DNA of 38,876 nucleotides from Phycisphaerales bacterium (GTDB lineage: Bacteria; Planctomycetota; Phycisphaerae; UBA1845): assembly GCA_020344555.1 (NCBI GenBank), contig CP070827.1, forward strand, positions 1 through 38,876, read 5' to 3'. The notes beneath the pieces are model-generated. The model saw only the letters and a program-made list of their open reading frames with translations. It was not told the origin of the DNA and searched no databases. Shown piece by piece: positions 32,466 to 38,223 of this stretch (position 1 is the first letter of the stretch; each line of letters begins with the position of its first letter). Both the position numbers and the translations under genes were made by a program.

Positions 32466-33251
32466 TCAACCTGCCCCGTGTACCCGTTCGTGGCATCGCC
32501 AGCAGAGCGTCAGGAGGTTGTCCTCGACGTCGGGGCCACCACGTGACCGGCGGCGGATGTGATGGAGTTGCAGTGGCCCAGCACTGCCGCACTGTTGGCA
32601 CTTCCAGTCGTCACGTTCGAGCACCATCAGCTGTATAGATCCTTCAACGCCTGCTGTGATGCCGGCCGTTTCGTGTCGCACACCGGCCAGAAAATCAGCG
32701 CATATGAGTTCGAGAGCTCGGGTGTCACCGACAAGACCACCCCGCTGCACGTGCTGAATGGCTCGCTCGACGATGAGCCATTGATCAAGAGAAAACGCCC
32801 AGAGTTTCTTGACCACCTCGTCACTGGACACCGGGCGAATACCCAAGGCCCGCTGAACAATCTCATGGATTTCAGCAAGGGTCAGCTTGGCTACGCGAGC
32901 CTGCTCGAGCAGCTCGCGGATCATTTCGGCATCATTGAGCCGGAAGATCTCCAGAGACTTGGACACGTCCACGCGGATAAGATCGCTGCGGTCGATGTTA
33001 TAGTCATGCATCTTGCGAACCAACTTGATGAGATACATGCCCCACCGTGGGCTGATCTCGAGACGGTCCGCCAAATACGTCTGAAAGTTCTTGAAGCCGA
33101 GGGTCCGGTACGCCAGCGACTCCTGAATCTCCAGGAGCACTTCGCCAAGATCCAGCCACCGCTTCCGCATCGTCGTCCGGAGTGACGTGAGCCGACGATC
33201 CAGGCGCTCGGCCTCCACCTGTGACGGTACAATGCCAAACGCCTCGTCCAT
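32466..33251 (-). CDS. HNH endonuclease-domain protein
   Basis: 261 residues. The N-terminal 190 are mostly helical: a segment with RKRWLDLGEVLLEI and LGFKNFQTYLADRLEIS resembles small phage or plasmid DNA-binding domains, but I do not recognise it firmly. The C-terminal HNH domain is clear: DDWKCQQCG (zinc Cys218 and Cys221), LQLHHIRRRSRGGPDVEDN (His230-His231 and Asn245), and CWRCHERVH (Cys250, Cys253, His254, His258). It should be a metal-dependent DNA nuclease or nickase. The start at 33251 is preferred because it lies four bases after the preceding stop; a longer frame to 33374 would overlap that gene by 119 bases. It is the last gene of a minus-strand operon with a Cas4-like nuclease. 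Confidence 0.85.
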   Translation of the reverse strand: MDEAFGIVPSQVEAERLDRRLTSLRTTMRKRWLDLGEVLLEIQESLAYRTLGFKNFQTYLADRLEISPRWGMYLIKLVRKMHDYNIDRSDLIRVDVSKSLEIFRLNDAEMIRELLEQARVAKLTLAEIHEIVQRALGIRPVSSDEVVKKLWAFSLDQWLIVERAIQHVQRGGLVGDTRALELICADFLAGVRHETAGITAGVEGSIQLMVLERDDWKCQQCGSAGPLQLHHIRRRSRGGPDVEDNLLTLCWRCHERVHGAG

Positions 33252-33255
33252 GCCA

Positions 33256-34050
33256 CTACGCAGCTGTCGGCCCAGGACCCAGTGCGAGCTGAGATTCGTA
33301 TTCAAATGTACGTTCGACCCGATCGTCCGCCAGGATAGCGGCCATCTCTGCCAGGGCCGTGTACTGATGGTCATCCGGGCCGACCCATTCGGGTTGTCGG
33401 AATTGCGGCAGATGGAACTGCCCGTACTGGTTCTCGACCAGTGTAGATGTCAACGTGATAGCACACTGGAAGAGCTGGACCCCTTGCATGCGAATCCGCG
33501 CGTAGCACATCGACAGGAACTGACGCGTCGGCTTCAGGGCCGCTCCTTTGAGGCTAATCCAGAACGGCAGACCATCCGCGCTCGCGACTCCCAGCAAGTT
33601 CCAGGTTTCCCTACAGACTGGACTCCGCCTTTCACCGTCCTCGGTGTGCCAAAACGCCAAACGACATTGTGGCACGAACAAGCCGCGCTCGTCCCAGTCA
33701 CCACACCGCGGGTTCACTGGATCGACCACATCCGGCGAGGGGCCGATGCCGTCTGGACTCTTGCATCGAGGAAGCAAATCATCGAGATTCTCAAAATACA
33801 CCCGCCCCCGGGTCCAGAGCACGAAGTGTGCCCGGATTGCTTCGTACTCCTCGAACGATACCGTGTCACGGTACCAGCCTGGCTTGACGCCGTAGCGGCT
33901 GGACGGCTGATTGAGGACGAATCGCCGGATGACGTGCTCCGGCGGGTGCAGAGTTTGCACTTCTGGCATGTGCAAACTCTGCACTCTCTTCTTGCGCTGC
34001 GACGAGGTGTTCCGCGCCCCTTTTTTATTCTTCTTCTTCGCGCACGCCAT
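33256..34050 (-). CDS. Uncharacterised four-Cys protein in nuclease operon
   Basis: 264 residues, no firm family. The first 25 are Lys/Arg-rich. Four Cys at about 96, 116, 129 and 146 (spacing 19, 12, 16) could bind zinc. They sit in a segment with CKSPDGIGPSP and VPQCRLAFW, then LPFWISLKGAALKPTRQFL and ITLTSTLVENQYGQF. This pattern reminds me of phage or mobile-element proteins of the recombination and single-strand-binding type, but that is a memory, not a search. The start is chosen at 34050: the SD AAAAGGAG lies seven bases before this ATG, whereas the ATG at 34068 only forms the overlap with the upstream gene. The stop is four bases before the HNH gene. Function unknown. Confidence 0.75.
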   Translation of the reverse strand: MACAKKKNKKGARNTSSQRKKRVQSLHMPEVQTLHPPEHVIRRFVLNQPSSRYGVKPGWYRDTVSFEEYEAIRAHFVLWTRGRVYFENLDDLLPRCKSPDGIGPSPDVVDPVNPRCGDWDERGLFVPQCRLAFWHTEDGERRSPVCRETWNLLGVASADGLPFWISLKGAALKPTRQFLSMCYARIRMQGVQLFQCAITLTSTLVENQYGQFHLPQFRQPEWVGPDDHQYTALAEMAAILADDRVERTFEYESQLALGPGPTAA

Positions 34051-34064
34051 TTTGTCTCTCCTTT

Positions 34065-34979
34065 TCACGCTGCTTCAAAGTGAGCTGGCTGCAGAGGGCT
34101 GTTTGACAGCAATTCCTTGCCACAACCGTGTTTAACCGCGCAGGCGTCGCAGCCGCCGTACATTGCCGATGGGTTCCAAAAGAAGCCGCCTGCACGGATG
34201 GCTGCGATTATCCGGGCGACGGCACAAGCTCCCTGCTCCAACTGCTCCGGTGTTTTCGTTATGCGGTAACAAGGATCACCGCGTAACTCGCCGGCAGCAT
34301 ATGTCGACCCGTCCGGCCGGCGACCAGCACGGCGATAGGGGATTAGCTGCGCCAGCTGGTAACACACGATCCCATGCAGGTTCTCACCGAGGACCTTACT
34401 GACGGCCTGCCACTCGTTCTCAACGAAGACCTCTCCCGCATGCAGACACCACGCGTAGAGCGAAAGCTGAATGTTTCGCTCAAAGGTTGCCAGCGAAGGG
34501 TTCGCCGCACTCGTCTTGATTTCATACACATCGAAGCCGCCGTCAGCGCACGGCCGCACTTGATCGACGACGCCCTCCACAGCGTACGGCCGTCCGCCGC
34601 GGCTGCGGACAGTGCCACGCACGGGCAGCTCGCAGAACACTACCCGAGCCTCACGCTCCCGAAGAACGTACTGTCTCAACGCGTCGCGCCAGTCTTCGAA
34701 CTCCTTGGCAAGCTTTTTAGCGTTGGCGTTGATTGGTGGGCCGGGCAAAGCGAGCTGTTGCCCCCATTCCTCCTCAAATACCTCGTCCACCCGATCCCAG
34801 GCCTTCTCAACGTGAAGCCGGAAAACCGTGGCGTGGGCCACTGTGCCACGGACCCGGGCGTAGTGCCTGAAGGCCGGCTTTACCCTTGCCAGCAGCGTCA
34901 GGCGTAAGGCTTCTGGACACGCCAGGTAAGCGTTGAGCATCCATTGGTGGTATGGTGGTTGAATGGTTGCGCTTTGCAC
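34065..34979 (-). CDS. Cas4/RecB-like PD-(D/E)XK nuclease with Fe-S Cys cluster
   Basis: 304 residues. All PD-(D/E)XK motif positions are present: His49 in RGTVAHA, Asp139 in GVVDQV, Glu153 and Lys155 in YEIKTS, and Gln171 in NIQLSLYAW. Four Cys (21, 277, 280, 286) are placed like those that bind a 4Fe-4S cluster in Cas4 and AddB: one N-terminal, three C-terminal in CDACAVKHGC. It is therefore a likely 5'-3' exonuclease or DNA end-processing enzyme. No Cas1, Cas2 or CRISPR array is visible, so it is not part of a CRISPR locus here. The start is GTG with AGGAG at a suitable spacing. It is the first gene of a minus-strand operon below the palindromic promoter at 35040-35068. Confidence 0.88.
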   Translation of the reverse strand: MQSATIQPPYHQWMLNAYLACPEALRLTLLARVKPAFRHYARVRGTVAHATVFRLHVEKAWDRVDEVFEEEWGQQLALPGPPINANAKKLAKEFEDWRDALRQYVLREREARVVFCELPVRGTVRSRGGRPYAVEGVVDQVRPCADGGFDVYEIKTSAANPSLATFERNIQLSLYAWCLHAGEVFVENEWQAVSKVLGENLHGIVCYQLAQLIPYRRAGRRPDGSTYAAGELRGDPCYRITKTPEQLEQGACAVARIIAAIRAGGFFWNPSAMYGGCDACAVKHGCGKELLSNSPLQPAHFEAA

Positions 34980-35039
34980 GTCGGTTCTCCTATTCTCCGC
35001 GCGTTCCTCAGTTCAGGCCTCCACGCTCTTCCTATTGAG

Positions 35040-35068
35040 AATATATCTTATAAAGATATATCGGTCAA
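35040..35068 (-). promoter_or_regulatory. Sigma70-type promoter with overlapping palindromic operator
   Basis: On the minus strand TTGACC (35068-35063) is followed after exactly 17 bases by TATATT (35045-35040), five of six and four of six matches to consensus. A perfect 21-bp inverted repeat (9-bp arms, 3-bp centre) at 35041-35061 covers the spacer and most of the -10, a standard repressor position. The XRE gene ends 43 bases upstream of the -35 box, so its product is the obvious candidate repressor, by inference. The stretch is AT-rich compared with the GC-rich neighbours. It drives the nuclease operon starting at 34979. Confidence 0.7.
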
Positions 35069-35110
35069 GAGAAAAATCTGTCTTTTTTAGGGGGATCTGC
35101 TGATATCTGC

Positions 35111-35383
35111 TCAGTCTGTGCGTCGACGCGAACGACGGGTAGAAAGCCGCCGAGATACCCGCATTGGTCCGAATAACTCGTTGATTGTCTTACAGCCCAG
35201 GGCCGCGGCTAGCCTTGCCAGCGTGTCCCACGTGGGGGTGCGCGCCCGATTTTCAAATTTCGCTACTTGGACCTGTCCGCTCGGCCCGAGCTTGGCCTTC
35301 TCGGCCAACTCAGCCTGGGTCAAGCCTCTGGCCTTCCGCAGCTCGGCTATGCGAAGGTTGGGTTTGTATTGGCCTACGCGCAT
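35111..35383 (-). CDS. XRE-family HTH transcriptional regulator
   Basis: 90 residues. The Cro/C1-type helix-turn-helix is clear: RIAELRKARGLTQAELAEKA (11-30), then KFENRARTPTWDTLARLAAALG. Residues 70-90 are Arg-rich. It probably binds the palindrome at 35041-35061 and represses the downstream nuclease operon, as in phage and plasmid regulators. That link rests on position only. The ATG at 35383 has a weak ribosome site. It is transcribed on the same strand as the operon, with the promoter between them. Confidence 0.85.
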   Translation of the reverse strand: MRVGQYKPNLRIAELRKARGLTQAELAEKAKLGPSGQVQVAKFENRARTPTWDTLARLAAALGCKTINELFGPMRVSRRLSTRRSRRRTD

Positions 35384-35607: not shown

Positions 35608-35629
35608 TTGAAGTAAAGGAGTACTTCAA
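35608..35629 (+). promoter_or_regulatory. Hairpin that presents the Shine-Dalgarno in its loop
   Basis: TTGAAGTA and TACTTCAA are perfect 8-base inverted arms (35608-35615, 35622-35629). Between them is the six-base loop AAGGAG (35616-35621), a full Shine-Dalgarno. The last base of the right arm is the A of the ATG, so the start codon is part of the stem. In RNA the loop would stay open while the start codon is partly paired, a design that can tune or switch translation. Confidence 0.55.
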
Positions 35630-36591
35630 TGGGCAAGAAAGTCGTCTCTGAAAAGCAGTTGAAGGCCAACAGGCGAAACGCCCTCAAATCCACCGGTCCT
35701 CGAACACCAGAAGGCAAGGAGCGCTCTAGCCGCAACGCACTTAAACATGGCCTCTTGGCGCGCGAGGTTGTCATCCGCGACGGCGACGGGGCCGAGAATC
35801 CGGCGGAGTTCGATGCTCTGTATGAGCGGTTCGTCGACGAGCTTCAACCAGTTGGCGTTCTCGAAGAAGCCCTGGTAGAGCGAATCGCGGTGAGCCATTG
35901 GCGTCTTCGCCGCGCTCTACGCTTTGAGGTGGGGGCAGTCCGTCAACTGCTTGATGAAGCCGATCGTCCACAGTGGGTATTAGGGTTAGACGAACCAGCG
36001 GGCGCTGTCGAACTGAAATTGCGGGAAGCTAGGGCGCAGCTCGATTATGACAAGCGTGTCGAGTCCTGGGCAAAAGAGCAGAATTGGGAGACTCTTTCGG
36101 AGCGGGAGTACTGGGATGCCCTCGGGCGCGCTTGGAGCGGACTTGCTAGGCAGGTCGACTTTGCTGATGAAGAATACCTGGGTGTCGAGTATCGAGGAAA
36201 ACTGCTTAACCATCTTCGAGGATTGGACGCATCAAATGATCGTTTACGGAAGATGCTGCTGGAAGCTCAGCATGAGGTAGTAGAACGGCAGCGGGAGCGC
36301 GTGGAAGGACTTAAGGGTGCCCTTATGACAGCTCGTCGTTACGATAGGCTGCGCCAAGAGCGCGCGGCGCTGGTTTACGCACTTCCGCGTGAAGACTACG
36401 TGAACAAGCTCGTCCGGTACGAGACGATGATCGATCGCGAGCTTCACCGAGCCCTTAGCCGCCTAGAGAGGCTCCAACGGGCTCGCTCCGGCGAGAACGT
36501 ACCACCGCCTCTGGAAGTAGGCGTAAGTGTAGACGGATCAGTCGAGAGCCGTCGGGACGAGGAGGAGCCACGGACCGGCAGGGTAGCTTAA
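35629..36591 (+). CDS. Conserved protein of the ANRRNALKSTGPRTPEGK family, unknown function
   Basis: 320 residues, charged, Arg/Glu/Leu-rich and mostly helical with coiled-coil-like stretches at about 85-140 and 205-245. The N-terminal 40 residues (SEKQLKANRRNALKSTG, then RTPEGKERSS and NALKHGLLAR) form a motif I recognise as recurrent and often multi-copy in Planctomycetota and some other soil or metagenomic genomes. No function is established to my knowledge. The start has a clear AAAGGAG site inside a hairpin. The gene is followed by decayed transposase sequence, so it may travel with mobile elements, but it shows no nuclease or integrase motif. Confidence 0.8.
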   Translation: MGKKVVSEKQLKANRRNALKSTGPRTPEGKERSSRNALKHGLLAREVVIRDGDGAENPAEFDALYERFVDELQPVGVLEEALVERIAVSHWRLRRALRFEVGAVRQLLDEADRPQWVLGLDEPAGAVELKLREARAQLDYDKRVESWAKEQNWETLSEREYWDALGRAWSGLARQVDFADEEYLGVEYRGKLLNHLRGLDASNDRLRKMLLEAQHEVVERQRERVEGLKGALMTARRYDRLRQERAALVYALPREDYVNKLVRYETMIDRELHRALSRLERLQRARSGENVPPPLEVGVSVDGSVESRRDEEEPRTGRVA

Positions 36592-37587: not shown

Positions 37588-38223
37588 GTGAAACAACTTA
37601 ACCATGTATGGGTGTTAGCCGTGCTCGGTGCGGCGGTGATAATTATGCCGTCGGCCGCGTCGGCGGACATCATGGCACTAACCAGCCCCGACCAGATCAA
37701 TGCGACACCGTTTACGTTCGACGGTTTCGGCGGGCCGGTAACGCCGGACACCAACACTGCCCTTATCGCTGCCGGTGCTGGGTTCATCTTCCCGAATGCC
37801 GGTGCAGGCGGCGGTGAGTTCATTGTCGACCGTGGGTCAGGCGATTTTGTATTGGATAGCCTCGGCGGCTTGTTCGGCTATGATGCGGTCGTCGAGTTCC
37901 AGTTCGATTCGCCGGTTGAAGCCTTCGGGATCGACTATGATACCAGCACACCGCTTTCGCTAGTGGCTTTCGATGTTGAGGACAATCCGATCAATGCTGA
38001 CTGGAGTATCGTGACTCCGCTCGATTCAACCATCGGGTTCTTCGGCATTGCGAGTACCGATGGTAATATTGCCAGCGTCCTGATCCACGATAGCCTTGGC
38101 AGTTTCACGCTTGACAACCTGAGGGCTGGGGAGCTGGCAACTATACCCCTTCCCGCTTCTTGGGCGCTGTGCATCGTCGGATTCGGGTTGGTGGGTTGGA
38201 TCAGGGCCAGGGGAAAGACCTGA
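37588..38223 (+). CDS. Secreted VPLPA/PEP-CTERM-type protein
   Basis: 211 residues. An N-terminal signal peptide ends with an AASA-D site (cut after about residue 26). The C-terminus (186-211) is a sorting tag of the PEP-CTERM/VPLPA type: IPLPASW, a hydrophobic segment and a short Arg/Lys tail. Such tags are cut by exosortase, a membrane enzyme usually linked to exopolysaccharide loci; no exosortase is in the window. The middle is Gly/Asp-rich beta structure with no named domain. Start GTG with GGAG eight bases upstream. The gene has its own promoter and terminator, so it is a single unit, and its product may be exported together with the glycan made by the left part of the window. Confidence 0.8.
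   Translation: MKQLNHVWVLAVLGAAVIIMPSAASADIMALTSPDQINATPFTFDGFGGPVTPDTNTALIAAGAGFIFPNAGAGGGEFIVDRGSGDFVLDSLGGLFGYDAVVEFQFDSPVEAFGIDYDTSTPLSLVAFDVEDNPINADWSIVTPLDSTIGFFGIASTDGNIASVLIHDSLGSFTLDNLRAGELATIPLPASWALCIVGFGLVGWIRARGKT

Follow-up and report, generated by a model that had tools for sequence, protein, structure and literature searches.

In the SXT-Exo/Bet/Ssb system of an ICE, which is of the lambda Red type, both SXT-Bet and SXT-Ssb stimulate the nuclease, SXT-Exo (PMC3118119). Among the Cas4-like nucleases, a role in uncharacterised defence has been proposed for solo Cas4, and an inactivated member is a nucleocapsid component, i.e., a structural protein, of the virus TTV1 (PMC5704561). 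The window analyzed here, a stretch of 38,876 nucleotides from the genome of a Phycisphaerales bacterium (contig CP070827.1), carries on its minus strand (32466-35383) four genes encoding an XRE regulator, a PD-(D/E)XK nuclease, a protein designated C4 and an HNH protein. The nuclease retains the catalytic residues D139, E153 and K155 and four Fe-S-type Cys (C21, C277, C280 and C286) and, as read from its sequence, shares this site and this set of Cys with the Cas4 of CRISPR adaptation. It nevertheless falls far under the cut-off of the curated cas4 model (16.2 vs. 65 bits), and neither cas1 or cas2 nor a CRISPR array was seen near the operon, as judged from the ORFs of 30-48 kb and from the lack of any Rfam match in the window. 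In fold, catalytic residues and the placement of one N-terminal and three C-terminal Cys, it resembles the MGE-Cas4/RecB-like PD-(D/E)XK nucleases (PF12705; PMC5704561), unlike which it is paired with C4 and an HNH protein. We propose that the four genes form a phage-type or mobile-element-type operon for DNA-end processing and recombination, a kit for DNA repair and recombination that is stranded in the chromosome after separation from its element, and we put the probability of this reading at roughly 0.6.

All four genes named by the first-pass annotation of this DNA are present, as judged from ORFs and Pfam matches, and the nuclease, C4 and HNH genes each occur once in the genome, which is rated 71% complete. 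The same annotation described gaps of four bases or a few, which fits the 4 nt between the C4 and HNH genes but not the 14 nt between the nuclease and C4 genes. The mechanically called HNH ORF begins at 33374, inside the C4 gene, and the ATG listed in the table is the better start, while AGGAGA, which resembles a ribosome site, is located upstream of the GTG start of the nuclease gene. The region contains two promoter-like sites of this quality against an expectation of 1.1; position, and not rarity, is therefore the basis of the promoter call. A perfect palindrome spans the spacer and the -10 box of this promoter-like site and exceeds chance (0.01 matches expected, allowing up to 3 mismatches), in keeping with the palindromic promoter beside a Cro-type regulator that had been claimed previously. 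An operator-like palindrome over the spacer and the -10 box is the usual arrangement for repression by an adjoining XRE protein. The XRE protein is predicted to repress the operon promoter, and the operon is probably repressor-switched. An inverted repeat in the C4 gene, with an RNA fold z-score of -3.27 and an exact pair found nowhere else in the genome, is possibly a site of translational control or of protein binding.

Table 1. Positions in the window of the operon genes and of the sequence elements associated with them.
Feature	Position	Strand	Details
XRE/Cro-type regulator, P0004	35383-35111	-	90 aa; Pfam HTH_3 7.7e-11
Sigma-70-like promoter (candidate), TTGACC-17-TATATT	35068-35040	-	between XRE and nuclease genes; 10/12 consensus positions
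Perfect 9+3+9 palindrome (21 bp), operator candidate	35041-35061	.	ATATATCTT-ATA-AAGATATAT
PD-(D/E)XK nuclease, P0003	GTG 34979-34065	-	304 aa; Pfam PDDEXK_1 3e-17
C4, P0002, Pam3 gp34-like	ATG 34050-33256	-	264 aa; homologues and profile link
Perfect 15-bp inverted repeat, 9-nt loop with in-frame ATG	33946-33984	-	inside C4 gene, 5' part
HNH protein, P0001, phage-type N-domain and HNH domain	ATG 33251-32466	-	261 aa; Pfam HNH 3.8e-11

C4, a zinc-finger-like protein, contains seven Cys, four of which (C96, C116, C129 and C146) are invariant together with W134 in six homologues, and its homologues are found in three planctomycete loci and two Tunturiibacter phages. It has no confident match in Pfam, PHROG, NCBIfam or PADLOC, no significant match to known SSB, RecT, Erf or Sak proteins and no match to an annealing-protein family in Pfam, PHROG or NCBIfam. 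Profile-profile comparison yields a collinear match to the Pam3 gp34 family over 180 columns (E=1.7e-5, probability 78.7%), while C4 (16.5 bits) and its closest homologue (24.5 bits) both score below the PF23977 gathering cut-off of 27 bits. By profile, C4 is distantly related to a large phage family that lacks annotation and includes the Pam3 gp34-like proteins, KPP25 ORF69 and TIN2_55. Pam3 gp34-like proteins (PF23977, phrog_2402) and those of phrog_5686 and phrog_27714, to none of which a function is assigned, resemble C4 in this profile and in their place in replication blocks, whereas Pam3 gp34 lacks the four Cys of C4.

The AlphaFold model of C4 is poor overall (pLDDT 47.6), and a second run with Pam3-like sequences added gave a worse one. 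Its better part is, at low confidence, of the beta-beta-beta-helix-beta-beta order that is compatible with an OB fold, with the Cys region between the first two strands. A fold search of the PDB returned no significant match, although RPA, ThermoDBP-RP1 and PrgE recurred among the non-significant ones, and searching the PDB by sequence with C4, with Pam3 gp34 or with the nuclease gave nothing real. A viral fold search gave 17 matches at E<=1e-3, of which those with names are proteins of tailed phages or uncultured viruses. Two of them were checked, KPP25 ORF69 and TIN2_55, each recognized in its record by length. Both contain the CxxC...W...C motif and are matched by the C4 profile, with E-values that come from a two-sequence search. 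Pattern searches with P0002, P0006 and C4 alignments found no relatives in viral contigs, tblastn of C4 found none on plasmids, and the C4 profile did not bear out weak C4 matches in four genomes (G427, G290, G248 and G263). C4 possibly has an OB-like core with a Cys4, probably zinc-binding, insertion; family context and the weak model suggest a role on ssDNA.

In phages, genes of the C4 family are located in replication blocks with helicase, polymerase, clamp, ligase and exonuclease genes as neighbors, and phage AXL3 has a gene for a RecB/Cas4-type nuclease about 2.3 kb from its C4-family gene. Relatives of the window nuclease itself were found neither in phages by tblastn nor in genomes by P0003 pattern search. 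The Tunturiibacter phages Tunturi_3 and Tunturi_4 share with the window an exonuclease gene upstream of the C4 homologue and, some kb downstream, an ORF for the N-domain followed by an adjacent HNH ORF; unlike the window, their exonuclease belongs to another family (phrog_298), the HNH parts are split and the genes extend across several kb within a complete phage genome. The labels 'Cas4-domain exonuclease' (Tunturi_3, L033:9899-10741) and 'primase' (Tunturi_4, L010:9881-10750) on these C4 homologues have no supporting family match, and the HNH ORF of Tunturi_3 is unannotated (L033:13939-14211). The HNH protein of the window, which fuses ORFs that are separate in both phages and in the relative genome G032, has an intact HNH domain, including its Cys pairs and His residues, matches the NCBIfam IscB model only below threshold (51.3 vs. 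175 bits) and has relatives of its N-domain in viral contigs. Two further genomes of this class have prophage-like loci with members of the C4/Pam3 family (L107:5321-6094 and L108:4995-5693), located in similar replication blocks beside SNF2-type helicase and primase-like genes named by sequence reading. One member has the Cys motif and the other lacks it, so that together they bridge the two forms. A match of C4 to a phage replication protein in a prophage had been named previously as counting against the first-pass reading; such a match is seen for the family but not for the window, where no prophage surrounds the operon.

The nuclease gene followed by an adjacent, co-oriented C4 gene recurs in Candidatus Brocadiia MAG_51 (two loci) and Candidatus Uabimicrobium amorphum. 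Two of these three loci (L032 and L026) contain genes for a TrwB/TraD-type coupling ATPase and an integrase or recombinase and, by gene content, are conjugative/integrative and mobile-element-like. An ArdC-like, i.e., antirestriction-like, gene lies 3' of the C4 gene in both, recognized by Pfam in L032 and by sequence reading in L026, and in the third locus, L025, a set of transposition genes lies between the start of an ArdC-like gene and a zincin-like gene. This Tn7-like set (L025:2706-8719), downstream of the nuclease-C4 pair and before the zincin-like and methyltransferase genes, comprises a Mu-type transposase by Pfam and TnsA-like, AAA ATPase and TniQ-like proteins by reading. The gene order is found elsewhere for the pair but not for the exact four-gene set, which among the genomes sampled, from collections that are not exhaustive, is found only in the window and as one remnant; the term 'new system' in the first-pass annotation is too strong, although the exact combination, apart from the remnant, was seen only here.

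The remnant is that of G032, the only one of 100 relatives with any such trace, in which the C-termini of the nuclease and of C4 precede an HNH N-domain with 73% identity to that of the window, a homology by which the operon genes are real. In G032 the HNH domain starts only shortly before the end of the contig and in another, overlapping reading frame, and the two parts are therefore separate ORFs. Around the operon, neither prophage nor ICE was recognized by reading of the flanks, which have no structural, integrase or conjugation genes and appear to encode polysaccharide, secreted-protein and housekeeping functions. Because no prophage or integrative element surrounds it, the operon is regarded as stranded. 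Genes at 1-28000 of the window form a run that reads as a polysaccharide biosynthesis region, and 37588-38223 encodes a small secreted protein whose tail is PEP-CTERM-like. The divergent gene at 35629-36591 encodes a 'KSTGPRTPEGK...NALKHG' protein without a family match and also adjoins the G032 remnant. It was rejected as an operon component: the family is dispersed, often multi-copy and present in 13 of the 100 relatives, whereas a nuclease or C4 match is confined to the window's genome and G032, besides a distant nuclease in G054. In the congener G002 the whole window region is absent beside speE, with no window match within 14 kb, a comparison that showed absence of the whole region and did not qualify as a clean empty site.

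The lack of an element around the operon, its patchy occurrence, a G032 remnant from which half the nuclease and the greater part of C4 are gone and the region missing in G002 would all suit a decaying prophage or conjugative-element remnant, the genes of which are still open with nothing selected in the present host. This explanation is nonetheless unlikely, as the four genes, the promoter, the palindrome and the ribosome sites are all intact and the active-site residues are kept. In addition, dN/dS between the window's genome (G000) and G032 is about 0.14 in the N-domain of the HNH protein and about 0.09 in the C-terminal part of the nuclease, the synonymous sites being nearly saturated; by sequence comparison there is purifying selection between the two, dN/dS being a measure of past selection.

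An anti-phage or anti-plasmid defence operon, in which the XRE protein would sense, two nucleases would cut incoming DNA and C4 would recognize it, is less probable again. It would account for two nucleases under a single repressor-type switch and accord with the role suggested for solo Cas4, but PADLOC returned only weak generic nuclease and HTH matches and none for C4, and no defence neighbors were seen within the window. The relatives of its parts reside in phages and in mobile elements, where the ArdC-like gene beside them suggests service to the invader. The annotation had offered a phage-derived recombination module or a defence system as alternatives: the former is supported by the C4 family in replication blocks, by the exonuclease gene ahead of the C4 homologue in Tunturi_3 and Tunturi_4 and by the recurring pair, whereas defence has no positive support.

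In the nuclease genes of the three mobile-type loci (L035, L036 and L037), E153 and K155 are replaced but none of the four Fe-S-type Cys varies; D139, too, has been lost from the two Brocadiia copies. Cutting may be dispensable in these loci. Such copies and the TTV1 precedent would agree with a nuclease-C4 pair that is mainly a DNA-binding complex of an Fe-S protein and a zinc protein, with cutting secondary or lost, but this is the least probable of the alternatives, for the window copy keeps all three catalytic residues and the mobile-type copies represent only two other genomes.

The DNA-end processing reading must be set against the same catalytically dead copies, the poor model of C4 and its want of a known SSB or annealing match, the different family of the phage exonucleases beside C4 and the restriction of the full four-gene set to the window and one remnant. 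Under this reading, the XRE protein would silence the promoter until stress occurs or DNA enters, after which the nuclease would resect double-strand DNA ends, C4 would coat or anneal the exposed single strand and the HNH protein would nick or cut recombination or replication intermediates. More tentatively, we suggest that C4 and its phage relatives could be an unrecognized ssDNA-binding or annealing family, some members with a Cys4 zinc insertion, that partners Fe-S PD-(D/E)XK nucleases; the nuclease might be a non-cutting Fe-S subunit in mobile elements, with the window keeping the cutting form under a repressor. Such a tie to a nuclease partner proposes a function for a large set of phage proteins annotated as hypothetical. 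The planctomycete loci also show a phage-type nuclease-partner pair carried by mobile elements, and the known copies divide into those with a catalytic nuclease and those in which it is apparently dead.

The operon would thereby work like the pairs of an exonuclease and a single-strand partner exemplified by SXT-Exo/Bet/Ssb and lambda Red. C4 has no detectable homology to Bet, RecT, Erf or Ssb, and the window, unlike the SXT system (PMC3118119), has an Fe-S-type PD-(D/E)XK nuclease of another family, an added HNH protein and no surrounding element. In both cases, however, a nuclease gene lies beside the gene for a putative single-strand partner, on phages or integrative elements, and the adjacency of nuclease and partner genes that marks Red/RecET-type pairs is seen in the window and in three other loci.
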